A stretch of 34,650 nt of DNA, taken from positions 1 through 34,650 of the forward strand of contig JAKANS010000054.1 in the NCBI GenBank assembly GCA_021823625.1, given 5' to 3'. The notes below the pieces were generated by a model. It was not told the DNA's origin. It made no database searches and worked only from the letters and a program-made list of their open reading frames with translations. The DNA comes from a bacterium (GTDB lineage Bacteria; Verrucomicrobiota; Verrucomicrobiia; Limisphaerales; J093). Shown piece after piece: positions 13,082-30,190 of the stretch (positions are counted from its first letter, which is position 1; the number at the start of each line of letters is the position of its first letter). Made by a program: the position numbers and the translations under genes.

Positions 13082-16357
<3,276 letters not shown>

Positions 16358-16599: not shown

Positions 16600-17907
16600 T
16601 TACGGTTTGGACGTGCGCGCGGCACCGCGCAGTTCGTGGGAGGGAACGCCACGCTTCTTCGCCAGTGGATCGACGTACCAGTGGTCGTCACCCTGGTCCG
16701 AGAAGAAAAGATACGGGCGGTTCTCCGGGAGCCATTTCTCCCACGCCGCCATCGAATCCTTTGGGGGCGCAGCAGCCGGTGCGTAGCGCGTCAGCAAACG
16801 AGCCGCACGTTGAGCGCTTTCCCCGCTGCCGCGCAAGGCGGCCAGGACTTTGTCGAAGAACTCCACGCGATCAATCGGCGCGCCCAGCGTGCGGGCGTCT
16901 TCGTCCACTTCCAATTTCAGATCGGCGCCGGGGTGGAGATAGACACGGTGCGCCACGTACCACTCGCGGACCTCAGTGCGGCTTTGGCCCTTGAGCTGAT
17001 CCACCAACGGGGCGCTCAGCAACCACGCGGCGTCGCTGGCGTCCCCGTTTTGCCCGAGACGCCGGTCGAGATACGCGCGCGGATAGCTCACCGGGCCGGC
17101 GAAGACGGACGGGGTCACCGCGATGGGACGGTCTTCGGTGAAGCGGCTGATGTAGGCAATGCAGTTAAGCAACAGGCGCTGACCGGCCTCGTTCAGCTCC
17201 GCCGGGGATTGCTGGAAACCGAAGTGCAGCAAATTGTCTTGCCGCCAGCAGGCCGCTCCGCGCGCGGTCTTTTCATTCTCGCCCCCACAGAAGACTTCGA
17301 TGTCGGGATTGTCTTCGAAACCGTCCGGGTAGGTACACCAACCCGCGGACCACTGCCGGCCGGCGTCGCGCACCAGCGGCAACATCGCGACCGTGGCGTT
17401 GGTTTCCTGCGGGCGAAACGCGGGCGCGGGCGCACGCTGGATCGTCGCCTGGGTGTCGCTGGCCAACGGTTCGCGGAAGATGCGGTGCTCGCGTAACCCG
17501 TACGCGAAAGGCGTCAGGCACGTTCACCCCGAACCGCCGCGGACTTTCCACACGACGGCCAGGTTCAGTCCGGCGCTGCCGAGTAACACCGTGGGCTTGC
17601 TCCATTGGGCGCGGTCGCCGAGCGGTGCGCGGCCCGTCTTCCACTCTTCGCGCGTTCGTTCCGATTGGGGCCAGTCAAGCAGCACGACGTCGAAAGTCTC
17701 TGCGTCAGCCGCCTTGAAGGCCCCGCGCGCCGCCACGGTCACCTGGCCAACGTTTTGGCGAAGGAAGCCTTCGAATTCCCTGGCGCGCGGTGTGCCGGCG
17801 TCGCCGATATAAAGCACCTTCAGCTTGTCGAGGTCGGCCGCGGTGGTCGCCGCGGACAGGATCCATCCGCCGAGCGCCAACCCCATCAGGATCGCGAAAG
17901 GCTTCAT
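16600..17907 (-). CDS. Secreted ThuA-like protein with in-frame TGA; candidate selenoprotein
   Basis: One gene of 436 codons interrupted only by TGA at 17526-17524 (codon 128). The first half (17907-17527) has a signal peptide (MKPFAILMGLALGGWILSA) and a Rossmann-like ThuA/amidotransferase-type start (LKVLYIGDAG, FDVVLLDWPQS, PTVLLGSAG). The second half continues in the same frame: TCLTPFAYGLREH, GWCTYPDGFEDNPDIEVF, GENEKTARGAACWRQ, NLLHFGFQQSP and LLLNCIAYISRF, which is typical of secreted ThuA-like proteins of PVC bacteria. A conventional gene caller would give two genes, 17524-17907 and 16600-17466. The continuous frame and the SECIS-like hairpin after the TGA suggest selenocysteine, giving GGSG-Sec-T-C. 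A Cys or Trp codon mutated to TGA is the alternative. The start is 4 bp after the upstream DsbD-alpha-like gene, so the two are co-transcribed. Biochemical function unknown. Confidence 0.75.
17488..17526 (-). promoter_or_regulatory. Candidate bacterial SECIS hairpin following the in-frame TGA
   Basis: Read on the minus strand, the TGA (17526-17524) is followed after 16 nt by TCGCGTA (17507-17501), a loop CGGGT (17500-17496) and TACGCGA (17495-17489). The stem is a perfect 7 bp, extendable by one U-G pair to 17508/17488. The loop begins 23 nt after the TGA. Its second base is G, and it contains GU. Bacterial SECIS elements are short stem-loops inside the coding region just after the UGA, with a G near the start of the apical loop. 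The geometry therefore fits, but SelB binding has not been shown. Confidence 0.6.
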
Positions 17908-17911
17908 AGGC

Positions 17912-19555
17912 TTAGGGCGACAAACCTAGCACATCCAACTGGGTTTCCAAAGCGATTGTTTCTGGCGGCCAGCACAGCGCCTCGTTGCATACCTGAAGAT
18001 ACACGGTGAGCGGCAACTGGTATCGGCCGGGCTGCGCGTGGTCCTTCACCAGGAAACGCCGCTGAAAGACCAGATCGCCCGCCAGCGTGCGCGAACTGTC
18101 TGGTTGTGACTGCGGCTCCGGGCCGCGCCACGGGCTGTCCGCCTCAAGGACCTGGCGCAGGCGCAGCGAAGCGTTAATGGTGGTCGGCACGTTGCTGCCG
18201 CCGGAATCTTCCAACGCGTAGATGTGAAACCCGGGCGCCAGCCGCACCTTCACAAACACGGTGACTGTCTCGCCCGGGCGTACGTGGCCGGGCTGAACCG
18301 CGACGCCGGTCGCCACGCGCTCTGCCGGCGAAGGCGCCGCGACGCCCATTTCCGGCATCGGCTGCGGTTGAAGGCGGAACTCCAATCGCGATCCTCGTTC
18401 CGCGTCGCGCAGGACGCGCGACAAGGCCGGCGCGTGGCCGTCGGCTTCGACGCGAAACTGCCAGTCGTGCATCTCGCGCGGGCCCGACAACAACGGGGAG
18501 TCATACTCCAAAGTGAATTGGCCGCCGGTGAATTGTCTGCGGTTGTACTCATGCCAGGCGCCGAAATTGGTCTGCCCGAGGCCCTGACTCTGAACGAACC
18601 GCGCGTTGACGATGAACTCCGGCACCGGCTGGCCGGTTGTTCCGTCGAGTACGGTCCCGCTCCCCCGAAACGAGGGACCGAGCGTCACGACCGCCTCGCC
18701 TGCCGACGGGCGCAATTCCTGCCGGCCGCGGCTCAAGTAGCCGCCCTTGCGAAAAGTCAGAAGCGCCGTTTCCGGCGGGGCATTCGACCAAACAAAGCGC
18801 CCGTCGGCGTCCGTTTTCCACTCCCAGCCCGGATAATACCACCGCCCCGGCAAGCTCGACTGCGAAGCGGGTTCTTCGGCAGGCCACTCGTCCACGCTCA
18901 CTTGCACACCCTGAATCGGCATGCCCGCCTCGTCCACCACGCGCACCCGCAACGGCGCGCCGCGGCTGAGTCGGATTTCCAACGGCGCCAAGTCGCGTTG
19001 CACCTCGACGAGCCGGAGGGCCGGCGCCGCCCCGTCGGCTTTGACACCGAGCAGACGCTTCTGCAAGTGCACGCGGCGGAACTCGAATCGTCCTTCCGCA
19101 TCGGTGGTGGTTTCCGGCGCCGAGCTTCCCGGCAAGATGTTGCCCTCCACGCCGAGAGCGACCTGAGCCCCACTCACGGCCGTGCCAGTGTCGTCCGTCA
19201 CGCGGCCCCGCAGCCGGACCACCGAGGTCAACCGGAATTGCGCGGTGCCATCCCGCAACGCCTCGACGGGAACTTCATCCTCCGGCATCGCGAAATCCGG
19301 ATGCGTCACTTCCACCCGCACGTAAGCCGCGTCTTTCGGCACGAAGTCGCAACTCCAGGTGCCGTTGGGGTCCGTTTGCACCCGAGTGTCTTCAGTCGGG
19401 ACGCACGGACCTGCCAGGCGTTGCGGAAAGACCAGCGTTACCTCGGCGCCCGCCACCGGTCCGCCGGATTCGTCGGTGACCCGCCCGCTCAAGTGTTGCG
19501 CTGGCGACAGCCGCAATTCGAACTGCGCTGGAATCCGGTCAGCGGGCCAGCGCAT
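17912..19555 (-). CDS. Carboxypeptidase-regulatory-like repeats with C-terminal DsbD-alpha-like domain
   Basis: About 547 residues. Several beta-sandwich modules of the carboxypeptidase-regulatory type follow one another (LSGRVTDESGGPVAGAEV, RGRVTDDTGTAVSGAQV, LRVRVVDEAGMPIQGVQV, GSGTVLDGTTGQPVPEF). From about 425 there is a domain resembling the N-terminal alpha domain of DsbD (APGFHIYALEDSGG, PGRYQLPLTVYLQVCNEALCWPPE). The Cys-x5-Cys pair in VCNEALCWPPE corresponds to the redox pair of DsbD-alpha. The gene ends 4 bp before the candidate selenoprotein. The ATG at 19555 is unlikely to be the true start: it falls in mid-module, and the missing N-terminus is in the frame of 19558-19809. A one-base frameshift in a C5 run explains the split. 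Confidence 0.8.
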   Translation of the reverse strand: MRWPADRIPAQFELRLSPAQHLSGRVTDESGGPVAGAEVTLVFPQRLAGPCVPTEDTRVQTDPNGTWSCDFVPKDAAYVRVEVTHPDFAMPEDEVPVEALRDGTAQFRLTSVVRLRGRVTDDTGTAVSGAQVALGVEGNILPGSSAPETTTDAEGRFEFRRVHLQKRLLGVKADGAAPALRLVEVQRDLAPLEIRLSRGAPLRVRVVDEAGMPIQGVQVSVDEWPAEEPASQSSLPGRWYYPGWEWKTDADGRFVWSNAPPETALLTFRKGGYLSRGRQELRPSAGEAVVTLGPSFRGSGTVLDGTTGQPVPEFIVNARFVQSQGLGQTNFGAWHEYNRRQFTGGQFTLEYDSPLLSGPREMHDWQFRVEADGHAPALSRVLRDAERGSRLEFRLQPQPMPEMGVAAPSPAERVATGVAVQPGHVRPGETVTVFVKVRLAPGFHIYALEDSGGSNVPTTINASLRLRQVLEADSPWRGPEPQSQPDSSRTLAGDLVFQRRFLVKDHAQPGRYQLPLTVYLQVCNEALCWPPETIALETQLDVLGLSP

Positions 19556-19950: not shown

Positions 19951-20976
19951 TCAGCCGGGTTGGCCGGGTTGGCCGCGGGGCGGGCAGCGGTTTGGGGGAA
20001 CGGCGGGCCAGCCGTCCTCGGTCCAGTCGAGCCGGCGGAGGTCGAGCGTCGGACGGCCGCCGCGGTTCGCGTCATAGTAATGGTAGCTGAACCAGTTCGT
20101 GCCGCGATCCTCGAGGATGCCGAGGTGGCCGGGACCGATGTAACGGCCGGTGGTGCCGAGGAACAAAGTGCCGCCGCCCTCACGCATGTCCTTGCCCACG
20201 CGATCAAGGTACGGCCCGGTGATCTGCCGGCTGCGCCCGACGCGGAGGTTGTAAGTGCTGTTCACGCCGGCGCAGCAGCGGTCCCAGTTCACGAAGAGAT
20301 AGTACCAGCCGGCGCGGTAATGCAGACAGGCGGCTTCGATCGACGTGTTCCAGGCGAGCGAGTCCCGCGGCGTGTCCGGTGCCGGCAGTTTGCCGGTGGT
20401 CGAATCGAGTGGGACCAGCTTGATGCCGCTCCAATACGAGCCAAAGGCCAGCCAGAGGTTGCCGCTCGCGTCCCGCGCCACCGACGGATCGATGGCGTTG
20501 AAGACGTCGCCCGCGCGCGACTGCACCACCAGGCCGCGGTCGGTCCAGCGATACGCCGGCGCCGCCGGATCCAGGGTCGGGTTGGTCACCAGGCCGATCG
20601 CCGACACCGGGCTGCCCCAGGTCGAGACCGAGTAATAAAGCCAGTAGCAGCCGTTGGTGAAAATGAGGTCGGGCGCCCAGCAAAAGCCGCGGAAGCCGGG
20701 CACGGAATTGGTGGTCCAACCGGGCGGCGAGTCAAACACGCGCGGCCCGGCGGACCACGAAACAAGGTCGGCCGACGACTTGGTGATGATCCCGGACCCG
20801 GTGTCGAAGACGTAATAGCGCTCACCGCAGCGAATGAGGGTCGAGGGATCGTGAATGCGGAGATCGCCTTGCAGGCCAGCGGAGAAGGCCGCAGCGGACG
20901 ACAACAGCCACGCGGAGGCGAGTGCCGCCAGCCCGCATCGAGGCGCAAGGTTTTGGCGGAGCGTCTTCAAATTCAA
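19951..20976 (-). CDS. Secreted GH43 family enzyme, endo-arabinanase-like
   Basis: A 341-residue five-bladed beta-propeller hydrolase with a signal peptide (about 1-34, AALASAWLLSSAAAFSAG). The three catalytic carboxylates of GH43 are visible: Asp43 in RIHDPSTL (base), Asp163 in NAIDPSVAR (pKa modulator) and Glu214 in SIEAACL (acid). The segments WAPDLIF, GSYWSGIKLVPL, YLFVNWDRCCAGV and GPGHLGI are those of arabinan endo-1,5-alpha-L-arabinanases of subfamily 5 type. It should cut alpha-1,5-arabinan outside the cytoplasm. The C-terminal tail is Pro/Gly-rich (GQPGQPG) from a short direct DNA repeat. It starts 25 bp after another GH43 gene, so the two are probably co-transcribed. Confidence 0.9.
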   Translation of the reverse strand: MNLKTLRQNLAPRCGLAALASAWLLSSAAAFSAGLQGDLRIHDPSTLIRCGERYYVFDTGSGIITKSSADLVSWSAGPRVFDSPPGWTTNSVPGFRGFCWAPDLIFTNGCYWLYYSVSTWGSPVSAIGLVTNPTLDPAAPAYRWTDRGLVVQSRAGDVFNAIDPSVARDASGNLWLAFGSYWSGIKLVPLDSTTGKLPAPDTPRDSLAWNTSIEAACLHYRAGWYYLFVNWDRCCAGVNSTYNLRVGRSRQITGPYLDRVGKDMREGGGTLFLGTTGRYIGPGHLGILEDRGTNWFSYHYYDANRGGRPTLDLRRLDWTEDGWPAVPPNRCPPRGQPGQPG

Positions 20977-21001: not shown

Positions 21002-22018
21002 TCAAGGTTGCCTGGCTGGTCCTAGGCGTCCATCCGCGCCGAATTCGACCGGCAATATCCCCGGCCTTTCCTGCCACGGTGCGCTCGCATCGCTACCAAA
21101 GAAGGTGGACCACCACCGGCCGCGGTCGTCCTGGAAAAACGTGTTGTGGCCGGCGTGCGGCAAGGCTTCGTAGCGCGCACCATATGAGCCGAAGATGTTC
21201 GTCGCCGTGGCCACGGTGCAACTGTACCGGCCGTCGAAGTTTTCCGCGCAAGACAGGTAATAGCGGCCGTTCCGCTTGAAGAGGTACATGCCTTCATAGC
21301 CGACGTGGTCGAACGAGTCTTGGCCGAAGATTCCCGCACACAGGCCGGAGTGGTGCTTGGGATTCGGATCGGACGCAGTCGTTTTCAGCCAATGGTACGG
21401 CTCGGCCAGGTCGCTCAGGTCCGGCTTCATCCGCGCGATCTTGCCGCTGTGCCAGAGAAAATAAACGGTGCCGTCGTCGTCTTCGAAGAGCGAGGCGTCA
21501 ATCTCGTCGCCGAGGCGCGCGTCGGGATGCATGTCCGCGTACGGTCCTTCGGGCTTGCCGGTCGTGCTCTTGAGGAGGCCGCAGCCGGAGGTTTTGGCGG
21601 TGCCGTCCCAACCCGGCATCGAGTACGTGAGCCAGAACGTGCCTTTGAGGTAATGCACCTCCGGCGCCCACAGCGGCTTCTTCGCTGCGAGGTGCGGTTG
21701 GTGCCACGGGCTGGCGCCGTATTTCCAAACAAAACCCAGCGCCATCCAGTTGGTGAGGTCGGGGGATTTCCAGAGCTTGATGCCTTCGTTGAAACCCCAG
21801 AACGGCTCGATCGTGCCGGTCAGGTACCAGGTGCCGTTCGGGCCGCGACAGATCGAGGTGTCGCGCAGTGGCGTGTCCATGAGTTGGCGCAGGCCGGGAA
21901 GCGGATTGATCGCGGGTGACGGCGCCAGCGTGTCAGCCGCGCGCGATGGCAGGCCACCCAGGATTGCCAGGCAAGCGACGCCAGCCACGGCCCGCGCTGG
22001 AAGAAGGCGTCTGAGCAT
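21002..22018 (-). CDS. Secreted GH43-like beta-propeller glycosidase
   Basis: A 338-residue exported protein with a signal peptide (MLRRLLPARAVAGVACLAILG, about 1-28). The GH43/clan F propeller shows Asp53 in PLRDTSICRGP as base, Asp174 in DEIDASLFEDDDG as pKa modulator and Glu242 in YEGMYLFKR as acid. WAPEVHYLKGTFWLTYSM is a blade-2 signature. It probably cleaves arabinofuranosyl, xylosyl or galactosyl links; the subfamily cannot be fixed by eye. The open frame extends to 22099, but the ATG at 22018 starts the signal peptide. It is the first gene of the minus-strand block, divergent from the Gfo/Idh/MocA gene across 133 bp. Confidence 0.85.
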   Translation of the reverse strand: MLRRLLPARAVAGVACLAILGGLPSRAADTLAPSPAINPLPGLRQLMDTPLRDTSICRGPNGTWYLTGTIEPFWGFNEGIKLWKSPDLTNWMALGFVWKYGASPWHQPHLAAKKPLWAPEVHYLKGTFWLTYSMPGWDGTAKTSGCGLLKSTTGKPEGPYADMHPDARLGDEIDASLFEDDDGTVYFLWHSGKIARMKPDLSDLAEPYHWLKTTASDPNPKHHSGLCAGIFGQDSFDHVGYEGMYLFKRNGRYYLSCAENFDGRYSCTVATATNIFGSYGARYEALPHAGHNTFFQDDRGRWWSTFFGSDASAPWQERPGILPVEFGADGRLGPARQP

Positions 22019-22151
22019 GATCACGCGTCGAGCATGGGGTGGCTTTGGTCCCGGAAGCCAGTTTGTTTTGCGCCGGCACACCGCGCGTTTGCAGCACATT
22101 GCTCGAAGATGGGCTTGTCAGCGCCGCGGAAGCCCCTAACTTCAAAGAAAA

Positions 22152-26777: not shown

Positions 26778-29700
26778 TCAATAGTACGCCGTCACGGTCG
26801 TCTTGACCTCCAACTTGGGCAGTTCCACCCACTCTTTCCTGGGATCGAATTTGTCCCACGGCTGGCCGTTCACCTCGACACGCTGGATCGGTTTCGCCTC
26901 GGGATGCCGGAAGCGGAGGAGGATTTGTTTGGGTGGCCGGCGGAAAGCCCCCTCACCCCGGCCCTCTCCCCCGGTGGGGGCGAGGGAGCGCTGCGGCTCG
27001 ACGACCGCCGTGATCTGGCCGCTGTTGGCCTTGGACTCGAACCGCAGGCTCATCGGCCCGAAGTGCGTCGCGGCGCGTTCGATGGACGGTTTTTCGCCAT
27101 CGGCGAGCCAGGCGCGGGGCAGGGCCATGCCGAGGCGGAGCACATCGTCGCCGCGGTCGTCTTCAATAAACATCAGCCGCAGCCAGTAGGTGGAGTTCGA
27201 CTCGTCGCTGGATTTGTAGTGGTCGCCGCGGAAATCGCCGAGGTCGGGCAGCGGATGCTCGCACATCATCTGCGTATCCGGGTAGTAGCACGAGGCGAAG
27301 GCGTTGAAGTAGGCGCGGAGGTAGTGCTTGATTTCGTCGCGCAACAGATACGGATGCGGCGAACAGAGGAGGTTCGGCTGCATGGAAATCCCGCCGCGGC
27401 TGAACCACTCCGCGCCGTGCTCCGCCCACGAGTAGCCGTAGCGCTCGGACAGGTAGAGGTTGTCCTCGAAGTCCTGCAGGATGTTCACGGCCATCGGATC
27501 GTCCGGTGCCAGCAGGCCGGTGCGGAGGAAGTAGATCGAGCCTTCCAGCGTCGTGGCGATCCAGCCGAACGTGCGTCCGCGCCGGTGAACCTCGGACGGG
27601 TATTGCGGAATCCAGGTGCCGTCGCGCAACGCCACCAGCGGCGCGCGGACCTTCGCCTCATTGAACGCCGTCAAGATATCGCGGTGATAGGCGTCGGCCT
27701 CGGCTTGGAGTGCCTTGGCGTCGGGGTGGCCGATGTCCGCGAGCGCACGGGCGATGGCATTCATGCCCCACCAACTGAAGGTGTTGTTCGACATCCAGCA
27801 ACGCCAGTCGCCAATGTCTTCCAGCGAGCCGGGCGGGAGCAGTCCGCGCTCGATGGCGCGCAGGCCGGTCAGCCTGGCGGTGCGGGCACGTTCGCGGGTG
27901 ATCCAGGCGCAGGCCTTGAGAAACTTGGCGGCGTTGCGTTCGAGCCAGGCCTGGTCGCCGGTGTACCGGTAGTGCTCGGCCATCGCCCAGAGAATCCAGC
28001 CGTGGTGCTGGTTGTAGCCGCCGGATTCCCAGCCGTTGGCGCCGTTGAACACGCCGTCCTGCGAGTCGTAGTCGCCCGGCAAACCCGTCGAGCTTTGGTA
28101 TTGGAGGAACGTTTCGAGGCAACGCTCGGCTTGGTCATGAAAGCCGCGGCGGTCGAGGTCGGTGATCATCATGCACGATTCGTTGCCATAGACGCCGTAG
28201 GCGAAACTGCCCACGCGCGCCGCCAGTCGGTCGGCGCCGACTTCGCGTCCACAGTTGATCAGGAGATGCGAGACATCGGCGCGGTAAAACCGGTTGAGTT
28301 CAGGAATCGGCGTTGTGATCTGGGCGCTGGCGTCGGCGCGGGCCGTCCAGAAGCGCTTTACGCGTTTGAACTCGTCGTTGAAGTCGAGATCGCGCAGGCG
28401 CTCGATTTCCTCCGGTTTGTCCAGCGTGATGAAGGGAATCTTGAGCACCATGGCGCCGTCGGTGCCGGGCGGCAGGTTGCCAAAGAAACGGATTCCCTGG
28501 CCTTCGGCGTGGGGTTTGCCGTCCGCCTGGCAATCCACCTGCGCGCGGAGGACTTCGCCGGACGGCAATTTTGCGAAAACGAGACCGTTCGTGAAGGTGA
28601 GCGGCAGGAGACGGCCGTCGGCCTTCAAGGTGAGGACGGCGTGCGCCTCCTTGTATTCCTGGGCGATGTTTCGGCCCGCGATCCGAACCATGAGCACGGC
28701 GATGTCGTCCGCCTGCATGTCCGGAAAGCCGAGGCTGCCGGGATCGAGCCGCGTGGCGAACGCCGTCTGCGTGTAGCGGATGCCGTCCCGTTCCCACTCG
28801 GTGTTCATGATCGGCAGGCACTCGTCCTCGATCCAGCGTTTCGTGGGCGCGGTGGCGGGCAGGCCAAAGTCGTAATCGAGCCGGTTCCCGCCCCAGATGC
28901 GGCGCGGGGTATCCTTGCCCACCGGTTGGTCAATGCGGTCGTTGAGGCAGAAGACCGAGCCGTTGAAGTTCACGCCGAAACGCTGGCGACCGCCCTCGGT
29001 GCCGACCGGCAGATAGATGTGGCCGGGCTTGGGCGGCTGTTGGGCGAGGGCGCGGGCGAGAGACTGCTCAGGTTGACTCGAGATCCGCTCATAGAGTGGA
29101 AGTGCTTCCGGGCTGCGCCTGCGTTCCTCGGTCTGAGCCGCAAGGCCGACCAGGCTATCCCTGCCGTCCCACGCCTCCACCAGCACCCCCAACCCCGGTG
29201 CGAAGATCGGCTTGCCCGTGGCCACGTCGGCCGGATCGAAGCTGAACGACTGGGCGGGCGTTCGCACCGTGACGACCGTGCGGTCGAATCCGTTCACGTT
29301 GGGACTCGCGGCAAACCAGACGAATGCGAGTTTCTGTCCCGGTTCCTCTTCCGGGACTTTGATGCCGTCCTCAACCGCGCTTTGAGGCGGCGCGGCCCAG
29401 CCGTTGAACACCTCGAGTTTCGCCGACTTCGCCTCGTCAGCTTGTTGCCACCTCATCGCGACTCCGATCTGGCGCCACACCGAGTCCGTGTACGTTTCCA
29501 GTTTCTCGACCTTCGGCGCGGGGCCGTCGAACAGCAGCCGCAGCCGCATCGTGGTGCGGTACTCGGCGTTGAAGTCCTTCAAGTTCGGGAATTCGTTCAA
29601 GTTCACGTGCCGGAAGGTGTAGGTCCACGTCTTGCCCTCCGGCTGAAAATAGACGTCCGCGCCGCGCCACTCGCCGCGGTACCAGTCGCCGAGCTCCAGC

Positions 29701-30122
29701 CAGCCGGACTCGCTGGCGCCGGAAGGCTGGTCGCGCGGGATGTGCCGTTCGGGCCAGACCGAGTGCCACCACTGCAGTCGCGCCTTGGCCGGATCGGGCG
29801 GGGCCTCGGCAAAGGTGACGACCACGCGGAAGAGGTCGCGCGGGTCCTCCCAAAAGATACCGACGTCGTTGCCGTTGGCCCACGACGCGCGTTCACCCCA
29901 CGGCGCGACATCCACCGGGTCGCCAGCGTGCAGGCTCGCGACGGTTGGCGGCGCCGCCGCAGAATCGGTGGCGAACAGCGGCGTGATCGCATGGCCGAGC
30001 CACAACGTGGTGGCTGCGAGGGCAAGCCAGCGGGCCAGCCGTTTGGGCCGGAGTGCGCGGCAGAGTGCGGTTGCCATCAAGCGGGGGGTTCGCCGCGCCG
30101 GGGCGGCACGTGCAGGTTTCAT
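26778..30122 (-). CDS. Large secreted (alpha/alpha)6-type glycosidase, family not assigned
   Basis: An 1114-residue exported protein. After a basic N-terminus and signal segment (RWLALAATTLWLGHAI, to about 52) comes a roughly 300-residue beta-rich region that looks like a DOMON/carbohydrate-binding module (VGIFWEDPRDLFRVVV, WTYTFRHVNL). A second beta-sandwich follows, and from about 620 a six-hairpin helical barrel: YGVYGNESCMMITDLDR, GANGWESGGYNQHHGWILW, NNTFSWWGMNAIARALADIG and YSWAEHGAEWFSRGG. The C-terminus is a short beta-domain. The architecture resembles GH78/GH65/GH63-like enzymes, but no CAZy family is recognised by eye; Asp and Glu in the barrel segments are catalytic candidates. 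A REP-like element is translated near residues 1044-1060. Met1 is used; Met16 is an alternative. Confidence 0.8.
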   Translation of the reverse strand: MKPARAAPARRTPRLMATALCRALRPKRLARWLALAATTLWLGHAITPLFATDSAAAPPTVASLHAGDPVDVAPWGERASWANGNDVGIFWEDPRDLFRVVVTFAEAPPDPAKARLQWWHSVWPERHIPRDQPSGASESGWLELGDWYRGEWRGADVYFQPEGKTWTYTFRHVNLNEFPNLKDFNAEYRTTMRLRLLFDGPAPKVEKLETYTDSVWRQIGVAMRWQQADEAKSAKLEVFNGWAAPPQSAVEDGIKVPEEEPGQKLAFVWFAASPNVNGFDRTVVTVRTPAQSFSFDPADVATGKPIFAPGLGVLVEAWDGRDSLVGLAAQTEERRRSPEALPLYERISSQPEQSLARALAQQPPKPGHIYLPVGTEGGRQRFGVNFNGSVFCLNDRIDQPVGKDTPRRIWGGNRLDYDFGLPATAPTKRWIEDECLPIMNTEWERDGIRYTQTAFATRLDPGSLGFPDMQADDIAVLMVRIAGRNIAQEYKEAHAVLTLKADGRLLPLTFTNGLVFAKLPSGEVLRAQVDCQADGKPHAEGQGIRFFGNLPPGTDGAMVLKIPFITLDKPEEIERLRDLDFNDEFKRVKRFWTARADASAQITTPIPELNRFYRADVSHLLINCGREVGADRLAARVGSFAYGVYGNESCMMITDLDRRGFHDQAERCLETFLQYQSSTGLPGDYDSQDGVFNGANGWESGGYNQHHGWILWAMAEHYRYTGDQAWLERNAAKFLKACAWITRERARTARLTGLRAIERGLLPPGSLEDIGDWRCWMSNNTFSWWGMNAIARALADIGHPDAKALQAEADAYHRDILTAFNEAKVRAPLVALRDGTWIPQYPSEVHRRGRTFGWIATTLEGSIYFLRTGLLAPDDPMAVNILQDFEDNLYLSERYGYSWAEHGAEWFSRGGISMQPNLLCSPHPYLLRDEIKHYLRAYFNAFASCYYPDTQMMCEHPLPDLGDFRGDHYKSSDESNSTYWLRLMFIEDDRGDDVLRLGMALPRAWLADGEKPSIERAATHFGPMSLRFESKANSGQITAVVEPQRSLAPTGGEGRGEGAFRRPPKQILLRFRHPEAKPIQRVEVNGQPWDKFDPRKEWVELPKLEVKTTVTAYY
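26948..26988. repeat. REP-like palindrome inserted in frame in a coding region
   Basis: The plus strand shows CCCCTCACCCCGGCCCTCTC followed by CCCCGGTGGGGGCGAGGGAG. This is the classic dispersed bacterial element of the CCCTCACCC-x-GCCCTCTCCC type, normally intergenic. Its core stem is CCCCC/GGGGG. In the plus frame it gives PLTPALSPGGGEG, a peptide known from spurious annotations of such repeats. In the gene's own (minus) frame it adds SLAPTGGEGRGEGAF without a stop. Confidence 0.8.
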
Positions 30123-30190
30123 CGTCGTTGGTCCAAGTAGTGCCGGGCGGCTCCGGCGTGGCTTCGTCCGGATATTTAACCAATTTCCGG

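Follow-up and report, generated by a model that had tools for sequence, protein, structure and literature searches.

A predicted selenoprotein with a U-T-C pair on a ThuA-like fold, encoded beside an nDsbD-like gene in a verrucomicrobial genome

Most characterised selenoproteins are thioredoxin-like (PMC13188914). Thioredoxin-like selenoprotein Sec.2 (PMC13188914, Table 1) carries a U-x-C motif, as does the family described here, and belongs to Pfam PF13192, whereas our family is predicted to have an amidotransferase-like fold and gives no thioredoxin match. The CTP synthase C-terminal region-related selenoprotein (NF004836; PMC13188914, PMC12013277) is likewise a predicted selenoprotein and, by its name, of amidotransferase type. 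Its motif is GxUxG rather than GGxG-U-T-C, no NCBIfam match to NF004836 was obtained for our family, and the latter appears to differ further in a site placed outside the presumed nucleophile elbow and in a protein bearing a signal peptide. ThuA-like proteins (PDB 1t0b) resemble the family in fold, with a Z score tied with those of HisH and other amidotransferases, but lack its Sec/Cys-x-Cys pair and its extra C-terminal region. The N-terminal domain of DsbD (PF11412) is the domain found, with both Cys aligned, in neighbours of the family and in fusions to it; here it stands alone, follows CarboxypepD_reg repeats or is fused, and no DsbD membrane domain was listed for the scanned proteins.

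The family itself is absent, by name and by motif, from Table 1 of PMC13188914, a list of 119 prokaryotic selenoprotein families (May 2026), the word ThuA does not occur in the accessible text of that paper, and the new families described in the accessible text of PMC12013277 do not include it. An earlier note on this DNA knew of no described ThuA-like selenoprotein, which agrees with open PMC full text: among the matches listed there, none describes one by title, none links a selenoprotein with type 1 glutamine amidotransferase, and no paper deals with the family (subscription papers, preprints and the PMC4807772 supplement, whose planctomycete candidates may include a member, lie outside this scope).

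The window, that is, the whole stretch of DNA analysed, comprises 34,650 nucleotides of contig JAKANS010000054.1 (assembly GCA_021823625.1; Verrucomicrobiota, Limisphaerales), and the features of interest are collected in Table 1. Two minus-strand ORFs, 17907-17524 and 17466-16600, had been described in the earlier note as lying in one frame. The same coordinates were recovered, and the frame read through from 17907 to 16600 contains one internal stop only, a TGA at codon 128. The proposed placement of Sec128 in GGSG-U-T-C is borne out by this codon, with residues around the site reading ...VRGGSG-U-TCLTPFAYGLREH..., and by its relatives, which have Cys or TGA there. The LacZ gene and both GH43 genes in the neighbourhood terminate with an ordinary TGA; UGA is thus not reassigned throughout, and general reassignment was ruled out. 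The neighbourhood is one of carbohydrate degradation, with a LacZ-type beta-galactosidase gene (13082-16342) and two GH43 arabinanase-like genes (19951-20976 and 21002-22099), all on the minus strand. Very long shadow ORFs of 1054 and 1078 aa (13193-16357 and 26904-30140, plus strand) face long minus-strand ORFs; ORF length by itself means little in this GC-rich window.

Table 1 Features of the predicted selenoprotein gene and its upstream neighbour in the window
Feature	Position	Strand	Remark
Predicted selenoprotein gene	16600..17907	-	435 aa when UGA is read through; stop TAA
Signal-peptide-like N-terminus	17830..17907	-	read by eye
ThuA-like / class-I-amidotransferase-like domain, residues 27-259	17131..17829	-	predicted model
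Predicted Sec codon, in-frame TGA, codon 128	17524..17526	-	Cys in Cys forms
U-T-C motif, residues 128-130, predicted redox pair	17518..17526	-	128 and 130 invariant among members
SECIS-like hairpin, 7-bp stem	17489..17507	-	loop CGGGU at 17500-17496
Upstream partner gene	17912..19555	-	ends 4 nt before selenoprotein ATG; CarboxypepD_reg repeats and C-terminal DsbD_N
DsbD_N domain (PF11412), partner residues 425-535	17951..18283	-	27.5 bits against cut-off 25

A protein search with the window protein returned 598 relatives at E ≤ 0.001. Among the best 120 of these 598, the motif is found in 65, all of more than 380 aa and all with Cys at position 128 as GGxG-C-T-C, and the remaining 55 (260-313 aa) start downstream of the site. 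A profile search returned 625 relatives at E ≤ 1e-5, of which the best 120 were used, and the two sets together hold 184 distinct database proteins: the motif is present in 129 (P0182 included), as C-T-C in 129/129, and 55 are short. The short proteins include the closest relatives of the window protein among the matches listed, with up to 95% identity. Judging from protein lengths and starts, these short forms would be the products of gene callers restarting after the UGA.

Species genomes were scanned with two conserved peptides, neither of which covers site 128, and 20 loci were obtained. Codon 128 is TGA in 13 of them (L028, L029, L030, L031, L034, L036, L038, L040, L041, L042, L044, L046 and L047), TGC or TGT in six (L032, L033, L035, L037, L039 and L043), and lost together with residues ~118-258 in one (L045). 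With the window included, 20 genes cover the site, 14 with TGA and six with Cys; in the alignment of homologues suggested by the earlier note, nothing else, and never Trp, was found at this position. Within the stretch examined, each of the 14 TGA genes is interrupted by its single TGA and by nothing else (L047 is cut off by a contig end), and the motif is U-T-C in 13 of them and U-A-C in L030. Positions 128 and 130 are invariant across 51 aligned members when U is read as C. The window protein shares 79% identity with that of L028 over residues 2-435, which span both sides of the TGA. The in-frame deletion of residues ~118-258 in L045:6001-6879 (identical to L048/L061) is either natural or an assembly artefact, and the genome of this site-deleted copy has both selA and selB above cut-off. 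Decayed copies, with TAG or with parts missing, were also seen (L026/L062 and L025/L060); the copy L026/L062 in genome G032 contains a TAG, yet its TGA is still present and its 7-bp stem is intact.

The perfect 7-bp stem with a 5-nt CGGGU loop reported in the earlier note was confirmed as claimed: its arms are UCGCGUA (17507-17501) and UACGCGA (17495-17489), the stem begins 16 nt past the TGA, and the loop lies 23 nt from it. Bacterial SECIS (bSECIS) rules place the loop 16-37 nt from the UGA, with a G in the first two loop positions and an MFE ≤ -7.5 (PMC13188914), and the window hairpin passes them with its loop 23 nt away and an energy of -8.7 kcal/mol. Taken alone, this hairpin is unremarkable in so GC-rich a gene, with z values of 0.20 and -0.90 that are no better than chance and an equal found in 496 of 2000 synonymous shuffles (shuffle figures overstate independence, as the genomes are related); compared with relatives, however, it goes well beyond chance. 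A script applying the bSECIS rules found, in 13 of the 14 TGA genes, a 6-8 bp stem whose 5-nt loop lies exactly 23 nt past the TGA, with an energy of -7.9 kcal/mol or lower in 12 and of -6.2 in L038. All of the rules are passed by 12/14 TGA genes; L038 fails the energy limit (-7.5), and L036, with the variant hairpin UCGCGC-AUGGC-GCGCGA (-9.3 kcal/mol), fails the loop rule. The same script found no hairpin at the 23-nt position in any of the six Cys genes, two of which have mere -0.1 and -1.1 stems elsewhere. The bacterial SECIS check thus returned a bSECIS-like hairpin specific to TGA genes.

In the ungapped alignment of the TGA genes, 96.9% of cells are paired at the hairpin against at most 46.9% when the pairing is slid, and two-sided changes occur at three of the seven pairs against none or one when slid. 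The compensatory changes are U-A to A-U (L044 and L046), G-C to C-G (L034) and U-A to C-G (L036). Where TGA genes have the same amino acid, they share the same codon in 84-100% of cases at codons +6 to +9 and +11, over the hairpin, and in 16-57% at codons -20 to -1; the highest values outside the hairpin are at +16 (80%) and +2 (64%). At the same codons the six Cys genes gave 4/4, 6/10, 10/15, 2/7 and 1/6, which are small numbers. An Rfam scan of the site yielded a single chance-level match, whose 16.5 bits fall short of the gathering score of 50.

The Sec genes for which the earlier note proposed a search, selA, selB and selD together with tRNA-Sec(UCA), are all present in the window genome. 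The selA match scores 491 bits (in-frame neighbour included), and selB, in an 886-aa ORF, 274.6 bits against a cut-off of 242.25, the match spanning positions 2-353 of the 581 in the model. ARAGORN places a tRNA-SeC with anticodon TCA directly before selD (G000:C23:27845-28925; L009, L019). The selD match, at 369.5 bits, carries an in-frame TGA of its own, as in known Sec-containing SelD. Across genomes, selA and selB are both above cut-off in 13/13 with the TGA form versus 1/6 with the Cys form (G440), with a Fisher p of 5e-4 that overstates independence because the genomes are related and also incomplete. A tRNA-Sec was matched at 59.7 bits or more in 11 of the 13 TGA-form genomes, and the model scan of the other two, G437 and G441, gave no tRNA-Sec match above cut-off. 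A second match above cut-off to the tRNA-Sec model in the window genome, at 49.5 bits, is a tRNA-Ser according to ARAGORN and was rejected; for this reason, matches of 47-50 bits in the Cys genomes G439, G442 and G446 were left uncounted.

TGA forms come from Verrucomicrobiota, Planctomycetota, Candidatus Hydrogenedentota and Acidobacteria, that is, from at least four phyla (L028 and L042 were not placed). The family is sparse, with four carriers among 97 relatives, five among 384 genomes of the class, two among 387 of the phylum and 12 among 320 of the order, these sets of genomes overlapping. The order search also gave L054-L059, which duplicate loci already counted, and L024 aligns as L028 does. 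In a tree of 37 rows with the site masked and a midpoint root, at least five Sec/Cys changes are required, two of them forced by starred branches, as where L034 (Sec) stands beside L037 (Cys) with support 100/94. Support is lower (98/76) for the position of L035 (Cys) within a set of planctomycete Sec forms. Sec rows are more scattered than Cys rows, which, under the midpoint root, fits an old Sec form that would have been lost to Cys repeatedly.

The window protein is predicted to adopt a ThuA-like/amidotransferase-like fold over residues ~27-259. The earlier designation as ThuA-like holds at the level of fold, in the predicted model, and does not hold at the level of sequence: Pfam ThuA matched 0 of 51 members at E values up to 1, NCBIfam gave nothing credible for the 51 members and nothing at 0.001 for the window protein, and sequence searches of the family against Pfam, NCBIfam and the PDB returned no credible relative. 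The presumed nucleophile elbow, which was placed by inference, reads LLGSAG, with S111 invariant and no Cys. In the predicted secondary structure, residue 128 is found in strand 127-131, after helix 112-120, and so appears to lie outside the presumed elbow near S111.

For the partner gene, the window and the 20 loci were surveyed (n = 21; adjacent ORFs only, several loci having short flanks). A relative of the DsbD_N-like partner adjoins the gene in 12 of 21 loci, upstream in the window, L028, L029, L030, L031, L032, L033, L039, L043, L045 and L047, and downstream in L044; among the adjacent ORFs of the other nine, some with short flanks, no DsbD_N-like neighbour was seen. Pfam DsbD_N is above cut-off in seven of the 12 partners (window, L028, L029, L032, L033, L045 and L047) and under cut-off with E < 0.01 in L030, L043 and L044, and for L039 and L031 the assignment relies on similarity in BLAST. 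The neighbour in L037, grouped with the partners by single-linkage clustering, was rejected, as Pfam identifies it as a sigma-factor/CarboxypepD_reg protein. The DsbD_N Cys codons of the window partner (17989-17987 and 17974-17972) form a pair that aligns with that of E. coli DsbD-alpha, and the Cys pair is retained in 11 of the 12 aligned partners. The partner-like protein L031:2463-5615 has neither DsbD_N Cys, and the Sec form next to it keeps U-T-C. A profile of the 12 partners matches E. coli DsbD-alpha structures with a best E of 7e-4 and both Cys aligned. Among the matches listed, three fusions of 615-631 aa (P0143, P0152 and P0159) carry DsbD_N above cut-off N-terminal to a Cys-form member. 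Pairing and fusion together suggest that an nDsbD-type thiol domain is linked with the U/C-x-C pair, probably in an extracytoplasmic setting. Lipobox-like N-termini were read by eye in the three fusions and in the partners of L032, L043, L044 and L047. Of the earlier claim that the protein is secreted, the signal-peptide-like N-terminus stands, along with these lipobox-like N-termini; export itself we infer from them, and the proteins of the family are probably secreted.

Class-, phylum- and order-wide searches gave no further full-length member apart from L064:1459-2757 (minus strand), which has ~29-31% identity to members and a TGA at the aligned site, reading M-U-N-C-M. Its genome, G440, has Sec genes, and the main family is represented there by a Cys form. 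The L064 stem GCGGCUC/GAGCCGC has 7 bp and -12.8 kcal/mol, with a loop, AAGGC, at 22 nt that fails the G rule. A search for L064 relatives gave 498 matches, and among the best 120 of these, 119 are pieces of 270-337 aa that begin past the site; among 25 whose starts were examined, 24 begin with the Met immediately past U-N-C. The sole full-length relative among the best 120 of 498, P0242, has C-N-C, and L068 (G450; selA and selB not above cut-off) has C-L-C at the site. As 119 of the 120 listed relatives start past the site, L064 likely represents a second, mostly Sec, family. A remote relative, L052 (G512; 23-26% identity), lacks both Cys and TGA at the site; not all of the wider superfamily has the Cys/Sec pair.

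Exchange of TGA with Cys, the Sec genes in the genome, the conserved hairpin and a sister gene with TGA at the aligned site support the recoding proposed in the earlier note, and UGA at codon 128 very likely encodes Sec, which would make the window gene a selenoprotein gene. Counting against this are the ordinary score of the window hairpin taken alone, the L036 and L038 hairpins that each miss a rule, the two TGA-form genomes with no tRNA-Sec match above cut-off, and L052. Were the TGA a true premature stop, whether from gene decay or from a mistake in assembly, the two halves would be made separately, and decayed copies do exist elsewhere (L026/L062 and L025/L060). The same lone TGA, however, recurs in 13 further genomes from several phyla, the protein is conserved on both flanks of the TGA (79% identity to L028), and the hairpin combines synonymous conservation with covariation, which makes such a stop very improbable. 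Decoding of UGA as some other amino acid, for instance Trp by a suppressor or near-cognate tRNA, would equally give the full-length protein that read-through alone predicts, and nothing specific favours it; the site has Cys and never Trp in relatives, neighbouring genes end normally at TGA, and TGA forms accompany selA, selB and the SECIS-like hairpin, so that we consider this decoding scarcely credible.

In such a selenoprotein, Sec128 could serve as a nucleophile of the hydrolase or transferase type, or as a metal ligand, rather than in redox exchange with the nDsbD-like partner. The fold is common to class-I amidotransferases, in which the catalytic residue is Cys, and nine of the 21 loci show no DsbD_N-like neighbour. 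Against a nucleophile or ligand, the U/C-x-C pair formed by residues 128 and 130 does not vary, DsbD_N is adjacent or fused with its Cys pair kept in 11/12 aligned partners, and residue 128 sits in strand 127-131, apparently away from the presumed elbow near S111. We give the nucleophile or ligand role tentative credit only. A redox role with the nDsbD-like partner is the one we lean towards, with some reserve, this part being the weaker because of the nine loci in which no neighbour was seen and the L031 neighbour without both Cys.

The best explanation overall, which we hold with good confidence, is a predicted selenoprotein with an extracytoplasmic redox role alongside an nDsbD-like partner. 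SelB and tRNA-Sec would insert Sec at UGA codon 128, likely guided by the downstream hairpin acting as a bacterial SECIS element. The protein would then be exported, and its ThuA-like domain would act outside the cytoplasm, where Sec128-Thr-Cys130 may form a selenol/thiol redox centre that cycles via a selenylsulfide and the adjoining nDsbD-like domain, by means of a Cys pair of its own, may pass reducing equivalents to and from it. The insertion of Sec, the export and the function are predicted here from sequence, and partner adjacency (12/21) and the three fusions point to a selenol-thiol redox protein that would work outside the cytoplasm with an nDsbD-like partner. On a wider view, the chances seem to us evenly balanced that sister ThuA-fold selenoprotein families (GGxG-U-T-C and M-U-N-C) make up an unrecognised extracytoplasmic selenol redox system of Verrucomicrobiota, Planctomycetota and Acidobacteriota, paired with or fused to nDsbD-like lipoproteins and hidden because annotation truncates almost all Sec forms at the UGA.

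The predicted family adds to the selenoproteins an uncatalogued member without a Pfam or NCBIfam model and, judging by L064, probably a second. Its U-x-C pair would sit on a ThuA/amidotransferase-like fold that is probably extracytoplasmic and nDsbD-linked, in contrast with the thioredoxin-like majority. Gene calling loses such genes: the region up to the site is missing from 55 of 120 listed relatives, and for the sister from 119 of 120. For hundreds of 'hypothetical proteins' (598 and 498 matches), the predicted U/C-x-C pair would provide a testable redox hypothesis.
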